This document shows positions 18,128 to 28,631 of a DNA stretch of 64,000 bases, in pieces (the stretch's first letter is position 1; each line of letters opens with the position of its first letter). The DNA is from Geothrix sp. Its GTDB lineage: Bacteria > Acidobacteriota > Holophagae > Holophagales > Holophagaceae. The stretch is from the NCBI RefSeq assembly GCF_030219325.1, contig NZ_CP126625.1, positions 2,034,857-2,098,856 of the forward strand, written 5' to 3'. Below the pieces are notes generated by a model that was not told the DNA's origin, made no database searches, and saw only the letters and a list, made by a program, of their open reading frames with translations. Made by a program: the position numbers and the translations under genes.

Positions 18128-20236
18128 CTACCGCTTGGCGCCTGTGGCGCCCAACGTCACGGCTGCGGTCTGCTCGTTGTTGTGCTGATCCACCACCTTC
18201 ACGAGGATGCGGTCCCCCCGGATGGCTTCGCGGGGCACCACGACATCGAAGCGCTCCTCCTTCTGATCGAAGACGCGATCTTCAGGCACGATCTGGAGCC
18301 AGCGTTCGCCATCGGCGCTGATGGCCGCCTCCTTGAGGACGGAGGTTTCGTCCCGGGCCAGGAAACGCACGCGGACGCCCTCGCCTTCGGCGGTGGCGCT
18401 CAGTTCCGCGATGACGGGCGGCGTGTGGTCCACGGTGAAGGGCGCCGTGCGCCACGTGGTGGTGAGCGAGGCGTTGAAGGGGACGGAAGGCGCGTCCGTG
18501 GCGGTGACTTCCAGCCGGTAGCGGCCATCGGGCACGGGCAGGGTATCGAAGCTGAAGAACTTCTCCTTCCAGGCCTTCTCGAGGAGCATGGGGGCGCCCC
18601 GCTCGGGGATCAGGCGGATCGCGAACTGCAGGGTATCGCCGTTGGGGTCATTCACCCGGAACTGGAAGCTCTGCCCGCCGCGGCGGAAGCTGCGCTTCTC
18701 CGCGCCCATGTAGCCCAGGGCCGGAATGAGCTTCTGCGTCTCCAGGGGCACCCGCTCGATCCCGATGTCGTCGGGCGGCGCGGTGCGGGTGATGACCAGC
18801 CCCGGCGGCATGATGTCCACGCCCTCCCAGACCGGGGCCAGGTTGCGGTGGGCCCAGAAGAGGCTCACGGTCTCAACGGTGGGCGTGGCGCCACCCCGGG
18901 TGCTGCTGAGGCGGAGGCGGAACTGGGCGAAGCGCGCCGCAGGCAGGGCCGGCCGCTCACCGCTGCGGAGCGGCGGCGTCCAGGGGCTCCAGGTGGCGTC
19001 GGGGGTCTCGGTGCTGCCGGTCCGGAACTGGAGCTCCACATTGGTCCCCGTGGGCATGTCGGCGTCCAGGTAGGCCCGCCCCCAGTCAGCGATGGGGGCC
19101 CCCTTGAGGATCCTGGATTCCAGCGTGCCCTCCGTGGCCTGGGCCTCGGACAGCAGGTGCAGCTCGGCCGGATTCGACCCCACCACGAGCAGGTCTCCGC
19201 CGGAGGGCAGGAAGGCCGTGGCCTGGGCCGTACCCAGCTCCTGCACCACCGCGAAGGGATCCATGTCCCGGGCCTTGCCCAGGGGGAGGGAGAAGAGCCG
19301 GGAGCGGTTGCCCGTGCCCACCAGCAGCTGGCCCTTCCAGGCCGTGAGGGCGTAGATCTGGCTCTGGGCGCTCTGCCAGAGGGTTTCCGGCACCCGGTCC
19401 TTGTCGAGGCGGATGACGGCGGAACGCGCGGTGGCGTTGGCCTCCGCCTGCAGGTAGCCCTCCCGGCGCTCCAGCTGGCCCGTGCTGAACTTGGGCGTGA
19501 GCCCGTTGTCGGCGCCGATGTAGAGCTGGCCGTCGGCCACGGCCAGGGCGCGAACCTCATCGAAGGGGGTGTCCATCAGGGTTTCCAGGCGGTCGCCCTG
19601 GCGGCTGTAGCGCAGGACCAGCCCGCGGCCATGGCTGCCGAGATACCAGCCCCCCTGGCCATCCTGAGCCAGGGCCGTGAAGGCCGTCTCGTCCGCCAGC
19701 TCCGCCAGGCGGCGGCTCGAGCCTTCGCGGGCCTGGAGCAGCAGGGCGCCCTTCTCGGAGCCGCCGGCCACGATCACGGCGTCGCCCTCCACGGCAAGGG
19801 CCCACACGATCCGGGTCTCGATGTCGGCGAAGGGCTTCACCTCGCCGCCGGGCGTTACGCGGATCAGCTTCCCCTCCCCGGTGGGAGCCACGATCAAGTC
19901 CTGACCCAGCCGCGCCATGGCGAAGACGATGCCGCCCTTCACCTGGCCCAGGGGCTTCATCTGGCCGCCGACGTAGTGGAACAGCTTGCCATCCGTGCCG
20001 GCGGACAGGTACGCGCCGCCTGAACCATCCGGCACCGCCGCCCAGATCACGCCTTCCGGGAGCTGGCCCACCCGGCGGAGGTTCGGGGCCAGACGCAGGC
20101 GCCCATCGGCGCCGATGCGCACGCCCCGGGTCTCAGAGCCGAGCCAGTCGTTGAACCCGGAGAAGGTGGCGGTGGGCTGGTCGGCCAGGGCAGCCACGCC
20201 CATCACGGCCGGGAGGAGGAAAGTCAGCAGGCGCAT
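18128..20236 (-). CDS. Exported beta-propeller protein with C-terminal Ig-like region, unknown function
   Basis: A 702-residue protein with a signal peptide (MRLLTFLLPAVMGVAALA). Residues about 30-370 hold repeated short beta motifs of a propeller, such as GVIWAAVPDGSGGAYLSAG, GIVFAMARLGQDLIVAPTGE, AFTALAQDGQGGWYLGSHGR and DEVRALAVADGQLYIGADNG. Residues about 380-700 look like beta-sandwich domains (VELQFRTGSTETPDATWSPW; FQFRVNDPNGDTLQFAIRL; RYRLEVTATDAPS). There are no transmembrane or kinase segments. It starts 21 bp after the S55 protease gene on the same strand, so the two are an operon. It may be a surface adaptor or substrate-recognition partner of that protease; this is inference. GAGG precedes the ATG. 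Confidence 0.85.
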   Translation of the reverse strand: MRLLTFLLPAVMGVAALADQPTATFSGFNDWLGSETRGVRIGADGRLRLAPNLRRVGQLPEGVIWAAVPDGSGGAYLSAGTDGKLFHYVGGQMKPLGQVKGGIVFAMARLGQDLIVAPTGEGKLIRVTPGGEVKPFADIETRIVWALAVEGDAVIVAGGSEKGALLLQAREGSSRRLAELADETAFTALAQDGQGGWYLGSHGRGLVLRYSRQGDRLETLMDTPFDEVRALAVADGQLYIGADNGLTPKFSTGQLERREGYLQAEANATARSAVIRLDKDRVPETLWQSAQSQIYALTAWKGQLLVGTGNRSRLFSLPLGKARDMDPFAVVQELGTAQATAFLPSGGDLLVVGSNPAELHLLSEAQATEGTLESRILKGAPIADWGRAYLDADMPTGTNVELQFRTGSTETPDATWSPWTPPLRSGERPALPAARFAQFRLRLSSTRGGATPTVETVSLFWAHRNLAPVWEGVDIMPPGLVITRTAPPDDIGIERVPLETQKLIPALGYMGAEKRSFRRGGQSFQFRVNDPNGDTLQFAIRLIPERGAPMLLEKAWKEKFFSFDTLPVPDGRYRLEVTATDAPSVPFNASLTTTWRTAPFTVDHTPPVIAELSATAEGEGVRVRFLARDETSVLKEAAISADGERWLQIVPEDRVFDQKEERFDVVVPREAIRGDRILVKVVDQHNNEQTAAVTLGATGAKR

Positions 20237-20257
20237 AGGACCTCGTCGCGAACGCAT

Positions 20258-21997
20258 TTATTCAATCTCCACTTCCAGTTGGCTCAGGCCGCGTACTTCC
20301 CGCTCGAGGGGCAGCAGGGCGCGCCCGATGATGCGGCGCTGAAGCCGGTTGTCGCTGCTGGCTCCATCGCCGCCGACCAGGCTGGCCACGGAGGGCGGGA
20401 TGCCTTCGATGCGGCTGCCGCGCAGGCCGGCGCCGGGCTGGGCCTGCACCAGGAGGGCATAGGCGTGGTTGTTCCGCAGAGCCCCGTTCAGGATCCGCAC
20501 CACGTCGCCGAGGGAGGCGGTCTCGATCACCCGCTCGTCCGGGTCGGCGGCCGTGAGGCTGTAGCCATCGCCGACCATGAGGATGGCCTTCCCCTTGGTG
20601 GCCGAGGAAGGTACCTGGATGTTGAAGGTCGCAGTTTCGCGGACCCCCTGGATGTTCTGGAGGGTCACCAGCACGGGCAGGACCTCGCCCCGCTTGGCGC
20701 GGGCCTTGAGCAGGCGCACGCCTGCGATGGCGGTCAGGTCCAGGCGCTCCTCGGCCTTGATGGTGAGCGAAATCCCTTCGATGACGGGCTTCTCGAAGGG
20801 GTTCAGGCAGATCGCCTGCAGCATGGCCCCCACGTACTGGGCCATGCGGCCGGGATTCAGGTCCGCGATGACGTTCTCGATCACGATGGCCGGCTGGCCC
20901 ACCAGCTTGATGTTGCCCTGCATGGAGAGGCTCTGCAGCCCGATGCCCCGGGTATGGGCGTCCAGGGTCTGGGCCACGGCGGTGGCGGCCAGGGCTGCGG
21001 TGGCCGTGGGGTGGTCCATGAGCTCGAAGCGGAAATTCAGCGTGCGCTTGCCGCCCAGGTTCAGGCCGATGCGCATGGGCACCATGCGGGCCTCGGCGCC
21101 CAGGATGCCCGCCACCCCCGAGCTGCGGTCCAGCCGCAAAGCTCCGATGGGCGCCACGGGCATGGCCAGCTTGAAGGAGTTCTGGTAGCTCGCCACCGTG
21201 GTGGACACCGTGGCCGACCACAGGGGCAGATCCACTGGGCCGAGGTTGAACAGCTGATGGCCGAACAGCAGGACCCGCTTGCCGGACACGTAGGTGATGG
21301 TGCCTGAGGCCGCCAGGTCCAGGTCCCCCTGCATGAGGGTGATGGCCACCATGCCCCCGGGCTCGATGGGGCTCGCGTCCTCCCGGCCACCGGAAAGCGT
21401 GGGCACCGCGGTGAAGGTGACGGGCCAGCCGGACCAGAGGCGCTGGGCCTCGGCACCCAGGGCGCTCCCCACCAGAGCCATGGGCAGGGCCTGGGGATCT
21501 CCCTCGCCGGTTAGGGTGTTGAAGTCCAGCATCTGCCCCAGCAGGGCGGCCTTGAGCACCTTGGGGGGCTCCAGCTTGGGCAGGATGAGGGGCGTCCGGC
21601 TGGGGGCGAGCTCGGGGATGTCCCGAAGCTGGTCCAGCATCTCGGCAATGGGCGTGATGCCACCGATGGGCTCCTTCTCGAAGGCGATGCCCGTGCTCAA
21701 GGCCCCGATGAGCTTGCCATCGATGTAGCAGGGGCTGCCGCTCATGCCGGCGAGGATCCCCGTCTCCGCCAGGGGGCCGCCGGAGGCCCGGACCATGATG
21801 CGGCTCCGCCCCGGGGCCGCATTCTTCTGCACGCCCAGGACTTCGAACTCGAAGCGGTCGATCTTCCCGCCCTGGAAGACGGTCCTGCCATAGCCCTTCA
21901 TGCCGGCCCGGATCTCGCCGACCCCCATGGTGGCGGGGCCCTGGGCGAAAAGGGATGTCAAGGACAAGAACAAGACGGCAAGACTGGCCAGTTTCAT
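20258..21997 (-). CDS. Secreted SpoIVB-type serine protease (peptidase S55 domain)
   Basis: A 579-residue protein with a signal peptide (MKLASLAVLFLSLTSLFAQ). The S55 domain follows at about 24-250: TMGVGEIRAGMKGYGRTV, DRFEFEVLGV, then GILAGMSGSPCYIDGKLIGA, where Ser86 of GMSGSP is the likely nucleophile as in SpoIVB. Unlike SpoIVB there is no visible PDZ domain before it, and about 330 residues of beta-rich sequence follow (for example GKRVLLFGHQLFNLGPVDLP). SpoIVB cleaves a regulator in sporulating Bacillus, but no sporulation genes are seen here, so the role differs. The frame is open 33 codons upstream; I chose the signal-peptide ATG. It is divergent from two TonB-dependent receptors. Confidence 0.88.
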   Translation of the reverse strand: MKLASLAVLFLSLTSLFAQGPATMGVGEIRAGMKGYGRTVFQGGKIDRFEFEVLGVQKNAAPGRSRIMVRASGGPLAETGILAGMSGSPCYIDGKLIGALSTGIAFEKEPIGGITPIAEMLDQLRDIPELAPSRTPLILPKLEPPKVLKAALLGQMLDFNTLTGEGDPQALPMALVGSALGAEAQRLWSGWPVTFTAVPTLSGGREDASPIEPGGMVAITLMQGDLDLAASGTITYVSGKRVLLFGHQLFNLGPVDLPLWSATVSTTVASYQNSFKLAMPVAPIGALRLDRSSGVAGILGAEARMVPMRIGLNLGGKRTLNFRFELMDHPTATAALAATAVAQTLDAHTRGIGLQSLSMQGNIKLVGQPAIVIENVIADLNPGRMAQYVGAMLQAICLNPFEKPVIEGISLTIKAEERLDLTAIAGVRLLKARAKRGEVLPVLVTLQNIQGVRETATFNIQVPSSATKGKAILMVGDGYSLTAADPDERVIETASLGDVVRILNGALRNNHAYALLVQAQPGAGLRGSRIEGIPPSVASLVGGDGASSDNRLQRRIIGRALLPLEREVRGLSQLEVEIE

Positions 21998-22154
21998 GAG
22001 GATCTCAAGGAAAGAAAGAAGCCTAACAGACGGCCCCCCTCGGACCCTCCTGTGACCATCAGGTGTCCCAGGCGTCACATTCGTTCCATGACCCAAAGGT
22101 CCCCTTCTTTGGAATCCCCCGCCCCGCTACCCTCGGATCATGGAGGAACTTCCT

Positions 22155-25148
22155 ATGCGTTCAAGGCACTTAAGCAGCTCATCCCTCGTCGCCCTGCTGG
22201 TGGCAGCGGCACCTCTCATGGCCCAGGGCGTATCCGTCCAGCTGGGTGGCCGAGTACTGGACACCCGGGGCGCTGCAGTGGCCGGTGCCACCGTGGTCAT
22301 CCGCAATGGCGAGACCGGCCTCACCCGCACCCTGCAGACCAGCGACGAGGGCCGGTACCTGGCCACCTTGCTGCCCGTGGGCCCGTACACGGTGACCGTC
22401 ACGAAGTTCGGCTACCAGACCGCCGCGAACATCAAGGTGAACCTGAACCTCGGCGATGCCGCCCCCCTGACCATCAAACTCGCCCCCGAGAGCGGTGCCG
22501 TGGTCGAAGTGGTCGCCGCGACCGCCCAGGTGGATTCGGAGCGCGCCAGCGCCGCCGCCATCGTCTCCCCCGACAACCTGACCAGCCTGCCCGTCTTGAA
22601 CCGCTCCTTCACCAACCTCGCCACCCTGGCCCCCCAGGTCGTGGTGGACAGCAGCCGCGGCAACCTGGCCATCGCCGGCCAGCGCGGCGTGAACACCTCC
22701 GTCAACATCGACGGCGGCGACAACAACGAACCCTTCTTTGGCGGCGCCACTGGCGCGGCCGAGGGCAAGACCCCCTTCACCATTTCCATCGAAGCCATCC
22801 GCGAGTACCAGGTGATCACCGACGGCGCCAGCGCCGAGTTCGGCCGCATGGGCGGCGGCTACGTGAACGCCATCACCAAGAACGGCACCAACGACCTCAG
22901 CGGCAGCCTCTTCTACTATCAGCGTCCCCGCGGCTGGGTGGAGGCCGGTCCGACCCTGCGCCAGCCCAATGGCAGCACCACCACGAATCCCGTGGGCGCC
23001 TTCCAGCAGGAGCAGTTCGGCTTCAGCATCGGTGGCCCCATCGTCAAGGACAAGCTCTTCTACTTCGTGGCCTATGATGCCCAGCGGAAGAATTCCCCCA
23101 TCAACCAAGTCTGGGGAGGAGGCTCCCCGGTCGTGTTCACGGCCGCAGACCTCGCAAACGTCAATGTGCAGACCCTGCTGACCAAGAGCGGCAATTACTC
23201 CGTGCCTGAGGACTCTGACACATACTTCATCCGCTTCGACTTCAACCCCACCGTTGACCACAATATCCAGTTCCGAGTGAACCACTCCAAATTCAAGGGA
23301 GTGACTGGGGCAGCTTCCAATGCCGCCTACGAAAACCTGGCTTCGGACGTCGTAAAAACAGACGCCTACGTCCTGCAGTGGAACTGGGTGATCAGTGGCA
23401 GCTGGATGAACGAATTCCGCGCCAGTCAGACCAAGGACGACATGCCCAGGTCGACCTTCTCCACCCTCCCGGAAGTCAGCATCACCAGCGTGGGCTACTA
23501 CGGGGCCTATCCCTTCGACCGCACCTACAACACCAAGCGCACCCAGATCCAGGAGAACATCAGCTACGTCACGCCCACCTTCCAGTTGAAGGCCGGCATC
23601 GACCAGAACGCCATCGACGTGGCCGAGTTCTTCGCCGGCAACTGGCAGGGCGTCTACATGTTCACCTCACTGGCCAACTTCGAGGCCGGGAACTGGTCCA
23701 CCTACCGCCAGAACTTCGGCCTCAGCGGCAATGTGAGAGACGCCGGACAGTTCGCCACCAACTACAAGCAGCAGGCCGCCTTTGTCCAGACCGACTGGCG
23801 CCTCAGCGACAGCTTCAAGCTGGGCCTCGGCGTCCGCTGGGACCGCCAGCAGAACCCCGGCTACCCGATCCTGGACATGAGCGATCCCCTCGCGGGCACG
23901 GCTGGCCATGCCGCCGCCATGCCCGTGACCGCGAAGATCCCCAACGACAGCCAGTTCTCGCCCAGGGCTTCCTTCACCTGGACGCCAGCCTTCGACCAGG
24001 GCAAGACCGTGGTGCGCGGCAGCGTAGGCCGCTACGTCAGCACCACCCCCGCCGTCTTCTTCTACCAGGTATTCGCCGCGAACGGCATCCGCACCGGACA
24101 GGTGGATTTCGTCGTCAAGCCGGCTTCCGGTGGCAACCCGGCCGTGGATGATTCCACGACCTACGGCATCCCGCGCGGCAGCGCCGCCACCAACACCGGT
24201 GGTGGAGCATTCAATGCGGCAAATCCCTACTGGATTTCCTCCCTCCCCGGAGGCGCCGCCCTGCCCAAGTTCAACATCTGGACCTTCAATCCCAACTTCA
24301 AGAATCCCTACACCGACCGCGCAAACCTGGGCGCCGAGCGGCCCTTCTTCCAGGACCTTGTGCTGGGTTTCTCGGCCACCTATGCCAAGAGCAACCAGCT
24401 GGAGCGCACCGCGGACCTGAACCTCGGTACGCCCACTCTGGGTGCCTACGGCCGCCTGATGTATCCCACCCGGCCCAACACCACCTACGGCACCATGGGC
24501 ATGTACTATTCCGATGCCACCAGCCTGTACCACGCCTATACCGCCAGCCTGAAATACCACAAGGAGGGCAGCGCCTTCGACGCCCAGCTCTTCTACACCT
24601 ACGCCATCAACAAGGACTCTGACTCCAACGAGCGCAACTACTCCGGCGTCTCGATCCAGGATGCCGGCCAGCTGGGCAAGCAGTGGGGCTACGCCGACAC
24701 CGACCGCCGTCAGGTACTGACCGGCTACTTCAGCTTCCTGGACAAGGAGATTTCCGGAATTCTTGCCTCCCTGTCCATCCGTTACCAGACGGGGGCGCCT
24801 TATACCCTGCTCTACACCAAGGATGTCAACAACGACGGGAACACGAGCAACGACCGCTACTTCGCCAACGGCGTGGACTCGGGCCGCAACACCTACCGCG
24901 CCGGTTCCCAGCTCTACATGGACCTCGGCCTGCGCCGGGACTTCCAGGTCACCCGCAAGGTCAAGTTCACGGCCTCCATGGACATCTTCAACCTGCTGAA
25001 CCGGCAGGACACCTACTTGTCCTACCGCCCCAACTCCGGCAGCACCGATGCGGCTCCGGTCCAGGACCAGACCCAGAACTGGACGGGGTACAGCGCCACC
25101 AACTGGCCCGCTCGCCAGATTCAAGTAGGTGGCCGCTTCGCTTTCTAG
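22155..25148 (+). CDS. Oar-like TonB-dependent receptor with carboxypeptidase-regulatory domain, copy 1
   Basis: A 997-residue outer-membrane protein. A signal peptide (MRSRHLSSSSLVALLVAAAPLMAQ) is followed by a carboxypeptidase-regulatory-like beta sandwich at about 25-110 (GGRVLDTRGAAVAGATVVIR, GRYLATLLPVGPYTVTVTK). Then come a plug domain (about 120-240, with GQRGVNTSVNIDGGDNNEP and EYQVITDGASAEFGR) and a long barrel starting GGGYVNAITKNGTNDLSGS and ending in phenylalanine (VGGRFAF), as expected for Bam-assembled barrels. This is the Oar/CirA-like architecture expanded in Acidobacteria. Substrate unknown; uptake of large oligomers or protein export are possible. GGAGG lies 8 nt before the chosen ATG. 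A 157-bp gap separates it from the divergent S55 gene. Confidence 0.92.
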   Translation: MRSRHLSSSSLVALLVAAAPLMAQGVSVQLGGRVLDTRGAAVAGATVVIRNGETGLTRTLQTSDEGRYLATLLPVGPYTVTVTKFGYQTAANIKVNLNLGDAAPLTIKLAPESGAVVEVVAATAQVDSERASAAAIVSPDNLTSLPVLNRSFTNLATLAPQVVVDSSRGNLAIAGQRGVNTSVNIDGGDNNEPFFGGATGAAEGKTPFTISIEAIREYQVITDGASAEFGRMGGGYVNAITKNGTNDLSGSLFYYQRPRGWVEAGPTLRQPNGSTTTNPVGAFQQEQFGFSIGGPIVKDKLFYFVAYDAQRKNSPINQVWGGGSPVVFTAADLANVNVQTLLTKSGNYSVPEDSDTYFIRFDFNPTVDHNIQFRVNHSKFKGVTGAASNAAYENLASDVVKTDAYVLQWNWVISGSWMNEFRASQTKDDMPRSTFSTLPEVSITSVGYYGAYPFDRTYNTKRTQIQENISYVTPTFQLKAGIDQNAIDVAEFFAGNWQGVYMFTSLANFEAGNWSTYRQNFGLSGNVRDAGQFATNYKQQAAFVQTDWRLSDSFKLGLGVRWDRQQNPGYPILDMSDPLAGTAGHAAAMPVTAKIPNDSQFSPRASFTWTPAFDQGKTVVRGSVGRYVSTTPAVFFYQVFAANGIRTGQVDFVVKPASGGNPAVDDSTTYGIPRGSAATNTGGGAFNAANPYWISSLPGGAALPKFNIWTFNPNFKNPYTDRANLGAERPFFQDLVLGFSATYAKSNQLERTADLNLGTPTLGAYGRLMYPTRPNTTYGTMGMYYSDATSLYHAYTASLKYHKEGSAFDAQLFYTYAINKDSDSNERNYSGVSIQDAGQLGKQWGYADTDRRQVLTGYFSFLDKEISGILASLSIRYQTGAPYTLLYTKDVNNDGNTSNDRYFANGVDSGRNTYRAGSQLYMDLGLRRDFQVTRKVKFTASMDIFNLLNRQDTYLSYRPNSGSTDAAPVQDQTQNWTGYSATNWPARQIQVGGRFAF

Positions 25149-25164
25149 CACCCACCGTTCGACC

Positions 25165-25200
25165 AAACGGGCGGCGCTCCGGCGCCGCCCGTTTTTCTTT
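25165..25200 (+). terminator. Rho-independent terminator between the two receptor genes
   Basis: A perfect 13-bp stem (AAACGGGCGGCGC and its complement, 25165-25177 and 25182-25194) with loop TCCG runs into TTTTTCTTT. It implies that the second receptor gene has its own promoter in 25201-25406, where a CATAAT hexamer at 25328-25333 is a weak -10 candidate. Confidence 0.9.
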
Positions 25201-25406
25201 GGACCGGATGTCGGTGTTTTTTCCAAGCCCGCCCCCTCAAGTGGAGGGACCCCTTCGAGTGGCGGCAGATGCCCTTCGCGTCATCCGGAATTTGCATCTG
25301 GGTCGTGCCAATTTGACCTCCTTCGGACATAATTTCCACAATCCTGATTTGGATCCCCCCCCCGGTCCTGAATTCGCTGGCCACCCGGCCCTTCTTGGAG
25401 GTCTAC

Positions 25407-28400
25407 ATGCCATTCCGCCGCCTACCGACCGTCGCCCTGACGGCGTTCGCCCTTTCCGTCGTGGCCCACGCCCAGACCAGCCAGACCTCCGGCGCCCTTC
25501 GCGGCACCGTCAAGGACCGCGGCAGCAAGGCCATCAGCGGCGCCAGCGTCCGCGTCACCAACCTTGAGACCGGCGCGGGCCGCACGGTCCGTTCCGGCGC
25601 CACCGGCGACTACACCTTCCCCCTGCTGCCCAGCGGCACCTACGAGGTGCTCGTCTCCGCCCCCGGCTACAAGCCCGTCAAGGAGAATGTCCGCGTCACC
25701 CTCGGCAACTCGGTGACCCTGAGTCCCACGCTGGAGGCCTCCGAGGTCGGCGCCGTGGTGGAAGTGGTGGCCTCGGCCAGTTCGGTGGATGCCAAGCAGG
25801 TGAGCACGGTGACCACCCTCGATCAGGACCTGGTGGAGACGATCCCCCTGGTCACCCGCAACTTCACGGACGTGGCCAAGCTGGCCCCCGGCGTGACCGC
25901 CGGCTCCGGCAGCCCGGCCCGCCTGGTGGTGGAGGGCGGCCGCCAGATCTTCAACGCCATCCAGATCGACGGCGCCAGCAACAACTCCGCCTTCTTCAAC
26001 GAGCAGCGCGGTGGCGTCTACACGCCCTTCATCTTCGGCGCCGACACCATCAAGGAACTGCAGGTCGTCACCAACGGCTTTGACGCCCAGTACGCCCAGG
26101 CCGGCGCCACCATCAATGCCATCACCAAGGGCGGCACCAATGAGGTGACCGGCAGCGCCCTCTACCAGATGCGCAAGACCGCCTGGACCGAGTCCTCCGA
26201 CCGCCCGCCCTTCGGCGGCTCCCCCGCCTCCGCCCGCACCAACGATTCCGAGAACATCAACTTCAACATCGGCGGACCGCTGGTCAAGGACAAGCTCTTC
26301 TACTTCTTCGGCGTGGAGCGCTACACCAAGAAGATCACGGCGAATCCCATCGCCACCACGACGAGCGCTGCCGCCGGCATGGGCGCTGCCGACCTGACCG
26401 CCTTCCTGGCCTCGCCCCTGGGCGGGATCATCACCAACCGCTCGGGCTTCACCCTGGCCCAGGAATTCGGCAATCCCGGCGCCGGCATCCCGGCCCACCC
26501 CTACCCCATGTCCAACACCAACACGGTGTACTTCGGTCGCCTGGACTGGGTGGCCAGCCAGAACCACCGCTTCGTGCTCCGCGCCAACTTCCAGGACATG
26601 ACGGACACGCTGCAGAACACCAGTGCCAATCCCAACAACGCCGAGAGCAACAACATTCCCACCCGGGTCCAGTCCATCAGCTGGGTGCTCGAGGCCAACA
26701 ACATCTGGACGCCTGAGCTCTTCACCGAGAGCCGCCTGCAGCTGGCCCGGGAGGCCCGGCCCATGACCGGCAACGCCGCTGCCGGCGTCCCGGCCATCGC
26801 CATCCCGACCTCCGGCACCAACATGTCCTTCGGCACGAAGACCTCCACGCCGCGGGAGAGCAACGAGATCACCACCCAGTTCTTCAGCGCCACCACCTGG
26901 GCCCACGGGGATCTGCAGATCAAGGGCGGCGTGGACCTCCTCCGGGTCGACGAGGACAACCAGTTCTTCCAGAACAATGCCGGTTCCTGGCGCTTCGACA
27001 CCTACGCCGGCGCCACCGCCTGGGCCACGGGCACCATCCCGCCCGCTCCCGCCGCGCCCGCCCCCAACCCCGGCGCCCCCGGCGGCATCACCTATGCCGG
27101 CGCCGTGAGCCCCTACAACGGCCGCATTCCCATGTGGACGCACACCAACGGCTTCTTCGGCCAGGCCCAGTACTCCGGCCTGTTCAACAAGCAGCTGACC
27201 CTCACCGCCGGGTTCCGCTACAACAAGCAGGAATTCTCGGACAATCCCCATCCGAACCCGAACCTCAAGGGCCTGGACCAGGGCTTCGGCGGCAGCACCA
27301 CGGATCCCCGCTTCGCGTTCAGCTTCGACGTGGACGGCAAGGGGAAGACCGTGATCCGCGGCGGCTACGGTGTCTTCACCAGCCCCACGCCCCTGCTGCT
27401 GCACTCCAACACCATGACCGGCAACGGCCAGATCATCACCAATTACTCGTACACGCTGAACACCGCGAACGCCGGCAACCTCGCCCTCTTCAATTCGGGC
27501 CTGCTGAGCGCCGCCAACCTGCTCAGCGGCACCAGCCTCCGCAAGGCCACGGACGCCGAGCTGGCGGCCATCGCCACCAGCGGGCTCTTCACCGCCGGCG
27601 CCTCCCCCACCTCCCTCTGGGATCCCGCCAACAAGCTGTCCCAGTCCAAGAAGATGAACCTGGGCGCTGAGCGCGACCTGGGCAACAACCTCGTGGTGGG
27701 CATCAGCGGCACCTACGTGAAGTACGAGCACCTGCAGCGCTTCGAGAACATCAACCTGAACCAGGGCCAGGTCGCCGGCGCCGCCGTCAATGGCTTCGGT
27801 CCTTCCGCCCCCTACAACGACGGCTACGCCAGCACCGTGGATCTCTGGGGAGGCGCAGGCACTGTGCGGCCGAACCAGGCCACCATCGGCGGCCGGACAG
27901 TCGACTTCCGCGCCGGCGCCTTCGCTGCGGGCAACCCGGTCGGCGGCTTCAGCGATGTGTACCTGGTCAAGACTGATGGCTATGGCTTCTACCGCGGCGT
28001 CAGCCTGTCCGCGAAGAAGACCTGGAATGACCGCACGGGCCTGATCGCCAATGCCACCTGGTCCCGCAGCCAGGACACGGGCTCCTTCGAGCGCGGCACC
28101 TACACCTCCGCCAGCAGCGACTTCACCAGCGAGCTGGGCGCCTCGCTCACGCCCAACCCCCAGAGCCCCGCCTCCAACTTCGGCTACGGCGACAGCGACC
28201 GGCGCCTGGTGGCGAACATGGTCTTCTACTTCCCCGTCGGCGAGAACCTCGACGTGGCCATCCGCGGCCTCTACCAGTCAGGCCTGCCCTACACCGCCTA
28301 CTACTCCAATGATCTGAATGGCGATGGGATGGCCAACCACATCCTGGCCGGTCATACCCGCAATGACCTGCGCCAGCCCAGCTACCAGCAGTTCGACGTT

Positions 28401-28631
28401 CGGGTGACCCGCGCCTTCAAGGTCACCAAGCGGTTCCACGTCGATGCCATCCTCGACATCTACAACGTCCTCAACAAGCCCGACTTCAACGTGACCAGCG
28501 CCAACTACAAGGCCGGGTCCCTGAACACGACCACGAACACCTTCACCCCGAATGCCTCCTTCGGGTACCTGACCGTGGTGGACAAGACCAAGTCCCGCGA
28601 AGTGCAGCTGGGCATCCGCCTCAAGTACTGA
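25407..28631 (+). CDS. Oar-like TonB-dependent receptor with carboxypeptidase-regulatory domain, copy 2
   Basis: A 1074-residue paralogue of the preceding receptor. Signal peptide MPFRRLPTVALTAFALSVVAHA, regulatory domain at about 25-110 (LRGTVKDRGSKAISGASVRV, GDYTFPLLPSGTYEVLVSAP), plug with GGRQIFNAIQIDGASNNSAF and ELQVVTNGFDAQYAQAGATI, then a barrel ending in LGIRLKY with a terminal tyrosine. Both copies share GAVVEVVA just after the regulatory domain, possibly the TonB box, and the barrel motif GGP(L/I)VKDKLFYF. Barrel loops differ between the copies, so the substrates may differ. GGAGG lies about 5 nt before the ATG. It is followed by a terminator. Confidence 0.92.
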   Translation: MPFRRLPTVALTAFALSVVAHAQTSQTSGALRGTVKDRGSKAISGASVRVTNLETGAGRTVRSGATGDYTFPLLPSGTYEVLVSAPGYKPVKENVRVTLGNSVTLSPTLEASEVGAVVEVVASASSVDAKQVSTVTTLDQDLVETIPLVTRNFTDVAKLAPGVTAGSGSPARLVVEGGRQIFNAIQIDGASNNSAFFNEQRGGVYTPFIFGADTIKELQVVTNGFDAQYAQAGATINAITKGGTNEVTGSALYQMRKTAWTESSDRPPFGGSPASARTNDSENINFNIGGPLVKDKLFYFFGVERYTKKITANPIATTTSAAAGMGAADLTAFLASPLGGIITNRSGFTLAQEFGNPGAGIPAHPYPMSNTNTVYFGRLDWVASQNHRFVLRANFQDMTDTLQNTSANPNNAESNNIPTRVQSISWVLEANNIWTPELFTESRLQLAREARPMTGNAAAGVPAIAIPTSGTNMSFGTKTSTPRESNEITTQFFSATTWAHGDLQIKGGVDLLRVDEDNQFFQNNAGSWRFDTYAGATAWATGTIPPAPAAPAPNPGAPGGITYAGAVSPYNGRIPMWTHTNGFFGQAQYSGLFNKQLTLTAGFRYNKQEFSDNPHPNPNLKGLDQGFGGSTTDPRFAFSFDVDGKGKTVIRGGYGVFTSPTPLLLHSNTMTGNGQIITNYSYTLNTANAGNLALFNSGLLSAANLLSGTSLRKATDAELAAIATSGLFTAGASPTSLWDPANKLSQSKKMNLGAERDLGNNLVVGISGTYVKYEHLQRFENINLNQGQVAGAAVNGFGPSAPYNDGYASTVDLWGGAGTVRPNQATIGGRTVDFRAGAFAAGNPVGGFSDVYLVKTDGYGFYRGVSLSAKKTWNDRTGLIANATWSRSQDTGSFERGTYTSASSDFTSELGASLTPNPQSPASNFGYGDSDRRLVANMVFYFPVGENLDVAIRGLYQSGLPYTAYYSNDLNGDGMANHILAGHTRNDLRQPSYQQFDVRVTRAFKVTKRFHVDAILDIYNVLNKPDFNVTSANYKAGSLNTTTNTFTPNASFGYLTVVDKTKSREVQLGIRLKY

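Follow-up and report, generated by a model that had tools for sequence, protein, structure and literature searches.

The window, a stretch of 64,000 nucleotides from Geothrix sp. (NZ_CP126625.1, forward-strand positions 2,034,857 to 2,098,856), encodes a putatively secreted serine protease related to the S55 protease SpoIVB of Bacillota and, directly downstream of it, a putatively secreted beta-propeller protein. Two Oar-like outer-membrane receptors are encoded divergently from this pair. Compared with SpoIVB, the protease domain is a circular permutant: it begins with the Ser half, and the His half follows about 170 residues later. The conservation of the S55 protein together with the propeller is far above chance. 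We propose, with a probability of roughly 0.6, that the two constitute a two-protein envelope protease, in which a permuted S55 enzyme would be paired with a propeller that docks substrate and/or controls activity.

The protease matches the Pfam family Peptidase_S55 (PF05580) at 27.4 bits, above the cut-off of 25. The match covers residues 39-102 only, corresponds to positions 126-191 of the 210 in the profile, and is confined to the stretch around the GMSGSP motif, the last part of the profile. PF05580 matches at E ≤ 0.01 were obtained for 79 of the 79 members of the protease alignment. The SpoIVB equivalog model TIGR02860 gives 24.2 bits and is not reached, its cut-off being 305.25. Pfam finds no PDZ domain in the protease at E ≤ 1 or in the 79 alignment members at E ≤ 0.01, and no domain in the C-terminal part of the protease.

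Profile-profile alignment established the order of the two halves. The SpoIVB profile contained 15 sequences, namely three labeled as plasmid, ten labeled as phage, one viral contig, and the chain of the crystal structure 9lnf. Residues 20-126 of the protease align with SpoIVB profile columns 211-307 (score 93.9, E = 6.1e-15), and residues 209-332 align with columns 107-238 (score 48.7, E = 4.5e-7). S55 proteases have the His half before the Ser half, and the order found here is the reverse. Neither the linker between the halves (residues 127-208, score 9.2) nor the C-terminal part (residues 333-580, score 14.2) matches the SpoIVB profile significantly. Rearranging the halves into the SpoIVB order gives one continuous alignment with a score of 122.2 (E = 1.5e-17), whereas in the native order each half aligns alone. 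The score of the His half was reached in none of 200 column shuffles, the maximum of which was 27.6. Fifty-two control windows, drawn from the alignments of the propeller, the receptors, and the C-terminal part, scored 21.2 at most, and a reversed profile scored 17.4. The GT(I/V)T, GH, and Asp/Asn motifs occur in the right order in the His-half alignment. The match of this half is weak (E = 0.0024) when the three plasmid SpoIVB sequences are used alone. The family profile of the Ser half matches 9lnf residues 231-300 (E = 5.2e-8), and the Pfam S55 model matches the His half of one relative (L125) at profile positions 12-89 (E = 0.057).

The AlphaFold2 model of the protease, computed with 79 sequences, has a mean predicted local distance difference test score (pLDDT) of 85 and a predicted template modeling score (pTM) of 0.86. 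In VIA structure comparisons, the first 111 mature residues of the model resemble the Ser barrels of DegQ (3pv3; Z 9.1, 97 residues, root-mean-square deviation (rmsd) 2.3), and the Ser barrel superimposes on residues 311-416 of SpoIVB 9lnf (Z 7.6, 103 residues, rmsd 2.1). His lies just after the model strand 222-225, and Asp lies just after the strand 256-270. This strand order, with His after the third strand and Asp after the fifth, is that of chymotrypsin.

Several searches weigh against the permutation. PF05580 detects the His half at E ≤ 1 in so few as 5 of 80 members (best E = 0.00067). When ten members were checked singly, Pfam detected it in L125 alone, which is also the one member whose matched profile positions are known. 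A His-half profile compared with the PDB sequences does not return 9lnf at E ≤ 10, and its best E value of 0.17 is at the level of chance. With the protease model as query, Foldseek finds nothing in the PDB at E ≤ 0.001; 9lnf is ranked 45th (E = 0.2, probability 1.00), behind rows of low probability that resemble chance matches. The VIA rows cover the Ser barrel alone, with none over the His/Asp barrel.

Judged by its sequence, the protease is best classified as a permuted branch of the S55 superfamily rather than as SpoIVB proper, because of the half order and because the TIGR02860 cut-off is not reached. The preliminary description of this DNA had stated that nothing supports a link to spore formation. 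That statement is borne out by the absence of Spo0A_C from the Geothrix genome (96.65% complete), a search that covered this one sporulation gene. A sporulation role for the protease was rejected on the same ground. The S55 match in bacteria without the sporulation regulator marks a differently wired protease that is present in 286 of 297 genomes of its phylum.

The candidate catalytic residues are invariant in the permuted family. Ser86 and His247 are each present in all 94 sequences, and Asp290 in all 95 (the window protease included and gaps set aside). Asp290 follows His247 by 43 residues in 93 of 94 sequences, and most of the aligned sequences are 26-35% identical to the window protease. 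The invariance of these residues argues for an active protease.

The SpoIVB column aligned to Asp290 contains Asn in 14 of 15 sequences and Ser in one, and the Bacillus subtilis residue is Asn290. Asn290 is not mentioned in the main text of the SpoIVB crystal paper (PMC12502668). That paper describes Asp363 as lying about 24 Å from His236 and proposes Thr393 as the third residue. In the permuted family, the column equivalent to Thr393 contains Ala in 53 of 94 sequences and Ser in 41, so Thr is unavailable as the third residue in these proteins. Thr393 was therefore rejected as a general third catalytic residue. Asp363 was rejected also, since the matching region (positions 72-76 in P0002 numbering, which has one extra leading residue, so that the P0002 number is the Met number + 1) lacks a conserved Asp. 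The replacement of Asp by Asn in the Asp290 column may explain the missing third catalytic residue of SpoIVB, where Asn290 would be a stand-in for an ancestral Asp. This column would offer a simple explanation for a puzzling crystal structure.

The co-occurrence of the protease and the propeller was determined in 297 genomes of the phylum Acidobacteriota, each at least 90% complete. The protease is present in 286 of them and the propeller in 286; the 11 negatives are identical, and presence agrees in 297 of 297. The protease was detected with one sequence and the propeller with a profile, the thresholds differed, and at most three propeller candidates were scored per genome. A deeper recheck with profiles of both proteins, in the 11 negatives and 29 chosen positives, agreed in 40 of 40 genomes. 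By their labels, the 11 negatives are spread over eight genera, three of which (g45, g115, and g119) also contain positives, implying several separate joint losses. In one family of the class, neither protein is present in any of seven genomes. The pair also persists where its genes are unlinked, for example in G120, G196, and G039, where 57 kb separate them. G127 and G292 each encode both proteins twice, in linked copies. In a panel of 60 relatives, the protease is present in 51 and the propeller in 51. These data identify the propeller as an obligate partner of the protease, and the matching presence argues that the protease is of little use without it.

The gene order was compared in named loci, the best 80 of 575 relatives (597 pattern matches). 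The propeller gene is the next gene downstream, on the same strand, in 56 of the 69 named loci with at least 1.2 kb of downstream sequence, and the same holds for 6 of 12 same-phylum loci. In one family of the class the two genes are unlinked, and 8 of its 9 panel genomes keep both proteins, with the propeller encoded elsewhere.

Four points qualify the coupling of the pair. The propeller gene is not the next gene in 13 of the 69 named loci. It is not adjacent in 6 of the 12 same-phylum loci, all from the one family with unlinked genes (L036, L037, L040, L041, L043, and L044). The presence lists of the 60 relatives differ at two incomplete genomes, G034, where the propeller starts at a contig edge, and G051, an 83% complete draft. 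Co-occurrence is a sign of functional dependence, not of contact, and does not separate an adaptor from an inhibitor, an activator, a sensor, or a substrate. The suggestion in the preliminary description that the propeller is a partner or substrate guide holds as far as the coupled unit is concerned. Both proteins are also retained in G206 and G312, two 1.2 Mb genomes of the same family, a hint of importance.

The window propeller protein has no Pfam match above cut-off (Reg_prop, E = 0.075). Reg_prop is found at E ≤ 0.01 in 51 of the 54 members of the propeller alignment, the window protein not being among the 51. Its AlphaFold2 model has a mean pLDDT of 90.3 and a pTM of 0.78. Mature residues 26-347 form a seven-bladed propeller (Z about 30, 275-283 residues, 2.3-2.8 Å), and the strands after this domain look in the model like C-terminal beta-sandwich domains. 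Two loops, mature residues 229-250 and 472-474, are of low confidence (pLDDT < 50). The BT4673 sensor ectodomain (3ott and 3va6) occupies the top Foldseek rows for the whole model (E = 7.8e-12). The full-length TM-scores are 0.18-0.29 with an rmsd of 28-32 Å, so the likeness is one of shared domain type only, and the propeller protein has no kinase part.

The proposed mechanism is as follows. The first protein would be a catalytically active S55-like serine endopeptidase, built as a PA-clan double barrel with the barrels in swapped order. Its predicted domain order is a Ser barrel, a variable linker, a His/Asp barrel, and a family-specific C-terminal part, with Ser86, His247, and Asp290 as the putative triad. 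Both proteins carry predicted signal peptides and would act outside the inner membrane. Since the protease has no PDZ domain by Pfam, substrate docking or control would most naturally fall to the propeller. It would take the role of the PDZ domain built into SpoIVB, presumably in contact with the enzyme, by docking substrates and/or by holding and releasing protease activity. The unit would make selective, regulatory, or maturing cuts in envelope proteins, and the Oar-like receptors would be neighbors outside the mechanism. A broader version joins several claims: that the pair is a core envelope protease of the whole phylum and also occurs in several others, that the enzyme is a PA-clan permutant, that the propeller replaces PDZ, that Asp290 marks the S55 third residue, and that the SpoIVB site would be Ser-His-Asn with Asn290, not Asp363 or Thr393. 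We put this joint version forward tentatively, at odds a little short of even. The matching presence of the propeller supplies a partner that is directly testable.

Other explanations of the pair were weighed against a protease with a docking or controlling propeller. The propeller protein may itself be the substrate, with the protease dedicated to maturing or releasing this surface or periplasmic protein. Co-occurrence and operon order would be identical in that case, and the two low-confidence loops could be cut. It would be unusual, however, for nearly a whole phylum to keep a protease for one substrate of 700 residues, and we regard this explanation as unlikely. A site-1-type arrangement would have the propeller as signal sensor; the protease would then cleave a regulator in the membrane, and an M50 protease would release a factor. 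It draws on the precedent of SpoIVB, which acts in this way through SpoIVFB (PMC12502668). The Geothrix genome has two M50 matches, and the best Foldseek rows of the propeller model belong to a sensor ectodomain. M50 matches occur in all 14 control genomes, however, which makes their presence uninformative, and the regulator genes found near the pair, which form one kinase/sigma-54 cluster (16 of 93 loci) and one extracytoplasmic function (ECF) sigma cluster (11 of 93 loci), are mostly separated from the protease gene by more than 3 kb. We give this arrangement little credence.

The S55 domain could also be a catalytically dead scaffold whose conserved residues are structural, an idea that gains something from the uncertainty over the third catalytic residue of SpoIVB itself (PMC12502668). 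An inactive enzyme would usually have lost such residues in one lineage or another. Here all three residues are invariant across 94-95 sequences, most of them 26-35% identical to the window protease, and the His-Asp spacing is fixed; a dead scaffold is very improbable. A further explanation holds that the Ser half alone is homologous to SpoIVB, that the resemblance of residues 209-332 is due to chance, and that the catalytic site is built differently. Sequence-versus-profile methods barely detect the second half, and no fold-search row covers it. Against this stand the score of 48.7 compared with a shuffle maximum of 27.6 and with 21.2 or less in other windows, the motifs in order, and a model strand order that fits, and we find a chance resemblance marginally harder still to accept. 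In a last explanation, the Oar-like receptors would be involved in exporting or processing the protease, by analogy with Oar and PopC in Myxococcus xanthus. This would fit the divergent arrangement at 157 bp and its retention within the genus (24 of 29 loci) and in other genera of the family (4 of 9 loci). It fails outside the family, it is at odds with the presence of the receptors in genomes with and without the pair and with about nine receptor frames in the Geothrix genome, and PopC, a subtilisin, has no signal peptide (PMC6434023). We consider this involvement scarcely credible; the preferred explanation remains the protease with a docking or controlling propeller.

Both window receptors match PF13620 and PF25183 above cut-off, corresponding to an N-terminal carboxypeptidase-regulatory-like domain and a large outer-membrane barrel. 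The plug domain PF07715 appears in receptor 1 only, below cut-off (E = 0.37). The receptor neighborhoods were scanned with a profile grown from receptor 1, not with PF25183. An Oar-like receptor lies divergently upstream of the protease at 24 of 29 same-genus loci, and one of the remaining five has 333 bp upstream only. Identity to receptor 1 at the same-genus loci (L003-L031) ranges from 33% to 87%, and this variation within a genus indicates that the receptor at this spot has been exchanged. At nine loci from other genera of the family, the receptor is present at four (26-70% identity), absent at four with about 5 kb upstream, and not assessable at one that is too short. Among loci with enough flank, an Oar-like receptor within 1.5 kb was found at 0 of 49 named loci and at 0 of 8 same-phylum loci outside the family. 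A receptor is nearby in L070, which has too little flank, and in L059, about 1.7 kb downstream; neither was counted as positive. All 40 genomes tested have PF25183 receptors, among them the 11 that lack the pair.

These data show that the receptor-protease association is local synteny and that the conservation of a receptor beside the pair does not exceed chance outside the window's own family. An Oar export module was rejected on the neighborhood, family-level, and genome-level tests. The preliminary description had proposed such an export or processing module and had named non-conservation of the arrangement in relatives as the result that would tell against it. The survey finds non-conservation outside the family and conservation inside the genus, and the module is contradicted by the 0 of 49 and 0 of 8 loci and by receptors that occur in 40 of 40 genomes regardless of the pair. 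PopC is a subtilisin-like protease that lacks a signal peptide (PMC6434023), and it therefore differs from the window protease both in family and in the route across the inner membrane. The tempting link to Oar-mediated protein export is unsupported and is removed.

Comparison with known systems places the pair as follows. SpoIVB (PF05580, MEROPS S55, 9lnf) shares with the window protease the GMSGSP motif, the GH motif, and flanking sequence in both halves, and is likewise a secreted serine protease of the PA-clan type. The window protease differs in its swapped halves, its extra C-terminal part, its separate propeller partner, its lack of a PDZ domain by Pfam, and its Asp290 in place of Asn290 (14 of 15) or Ser (1 of 15). 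The HtrA/Deg proteases DegQ and DegP, envelope proteases of the PA clan, give the best VIA matches of the Ser barrel (Z 8.3-9.1 over 94-102 residues in the first 17 rows), but identity in these rows is 16-20%. HtrA/Deg proteases have the canonical barrel order and built-in PDZ domains. PopC-Oar of M. xanthus resembles the window in combining a protease with an Oar-type receptor in one envelope, but the window protease is S55-like with a signal peptide and its link to a receptor is not conserved, whereas PopC is subtilisin-like and lacks the peptide (PMC6434023). The circularly permuted NlpC/P60 cysteine peptidases are a natural permutation of a peptidase fold, but of the papain-like fold and not the PA clan (PMC3142127). 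If confirmed, natural circular permutation in the chymotrypsin-type fold would shed light on how this fold tolerates rewiring. According to one report, S55 proteins are widespread among acidobacteria but missing in two strains of Acanthopleuribacteraceae (PMC8841776). The listings of the literature searched, subscription papers and bioRxiv lying outside the search, gave no account of either a permuted S55 protein or an S55-propeller pair.

The features of the locus are collected in Table 1. The coordinates and layout given in the preliminary description, an S55 protease with an abutting propeller gene divergent by 157 bp from two Oar-like receptors, are correct, and the signal peptides it assigned to both proteins agree with our by-eye reading. 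The protease open reading frame starts at the ATG at 21997 (N terminus MKLASLAVLFLSLTSLFAQ...) and its TAA stop ends at 20258. The propeller ATG directly follows this TAA in the same frame (20255-20260), leaving one stop codon between the two frames. The same single-stop, same-frame arrangement is found in 15 of the 80 named loci. No fused protease-propeller frame was found among the 80, and the two never share a reading-frame segment. Receptor 1 starts at the ATG at 22155, with an alternative at 22140; the 157 bp between the divergent starts refers to 22155. The Geothrix genome (3.73 Mb, one contig) has one S55 match, one such propeller, and about nine PF25183 reading frames.

Table 1. Positions of the protease, propeller, and receptor features in the window.
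Feature	Coordinates	Strand	Remarks
Protease coding sequence (putatively secreted, circularly permuted S55-type serine protease)	20258..21997	-	579 aa from Met
Protease signal peptide (predicted)	21941..21997	-	19 aa, judged by eye from sequence
Ser half, placed first (counterpart of the barrel that is C-terminal in SpoIVB and other PA-clan proteases)	21623..21940	-	
Ser86 codon (GMSGSP), candidate nucleophile	21740..21742	-	Ser in 94/94
Variable linker between the halves	21377..21622	-	59-142 aa in relatives; model confidence low in parts
His/Asp half, placed second (counterpart of the N-terminal barrel of SpoIVB)	21005..21376	-	
His247 codon (FGH motif)	21257..21259	-	His in 94/94
Asp290 codon, candidate third catalytic residue	21128..21130	-	Asp in 95/95
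Protease C-terminal part	20261..21004	-	mature residues 313-560; mostly well modeled; mixed strands and helices
Propeller coding sequence (putatively secreted beta-propeller/beta-sandwich partner)	18128..20257	-	709 aa
Propeller-protein signal peptide (predicted)	20183..20257	-	about 25 aa, judged by eye from sequence
Seven-bladed propeller domain of the partner	19142..20107	-	mature residues 26-347
Divergent intergenic region, protease/receptor 1	21998..22154	none	157 bp
Oar-like outer-membrane receptor 1	22155..25148	+	neighbor, judged outside the conserved module
Oar-like outer-membrane receptor 2	25395..28631	+	neighbor, judged outside the conserved module

Neighboring reading frames were clustered at 93 loci, and no third gene beside the pair is comparably shared. 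The S55 family is found at 93 loci and the propeller at 67. Clusters of 46, 27, 21, and 14 loci run antisense over the protease and propeller genes. The next real neighbor family is a VWA-domain protein, encoded divergently within 1 kb upstream of the protease at 19 of 93 loci (for example L090:5716-7065, minus strand). The VWA gene occupies the place that the Oar-like receptor has in the window. Another cluster, of 17 loci, occupies this place on the opposite strand and is probably a shadow of the VWA gene. Shikimate, phosphoribosyltransferase-like, ECF sigma, zinc-transporter, and epimerase clusters are each found at 10-11 of the 93 loci. The annotation of the clusters drew on seven proteins.

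The titles of the named loci, the best 80 of 575, are mostly Acidobacteriota or Aminicenantes. The pair also occurs under the titles Latescibacterota (L054 and L099), Zixibacteria (L068), Gemmatimonadota (L073 and L104), and Poribacteria (L125). The KSB1 locus L118 contains the protease, with downstream sequence too short to judge the propeller. A permuted S55-propeller pair is present in L072 (CALQBJ020000043.1, titled Bifidobacterium breve) and L086 (VFZL01000001.1, titled Acidimicrobiia). These two are likely mislabeled bins, because the pair is out of keeping with their names.

The permuted protease gave no plasmid match and no relative on a viral contig. A SpoIVB match is found in twelve records titled Bacteriophage sp. 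from human fecal samples (MT838563.1, MT837803.1, MT837510.1, MT835504.1, and eight more); in one record it extends over only 9% of the query. They are probably host chromosome fragments deposited as phage. In the plasmid-labeled loci L126 and L127 (NZ_OY725742.1 and NZ_CP142397.1), spoIVB adjoins spo0A. This is the usual chromosomal arrangement, and both loci are probably chromosome pieces.

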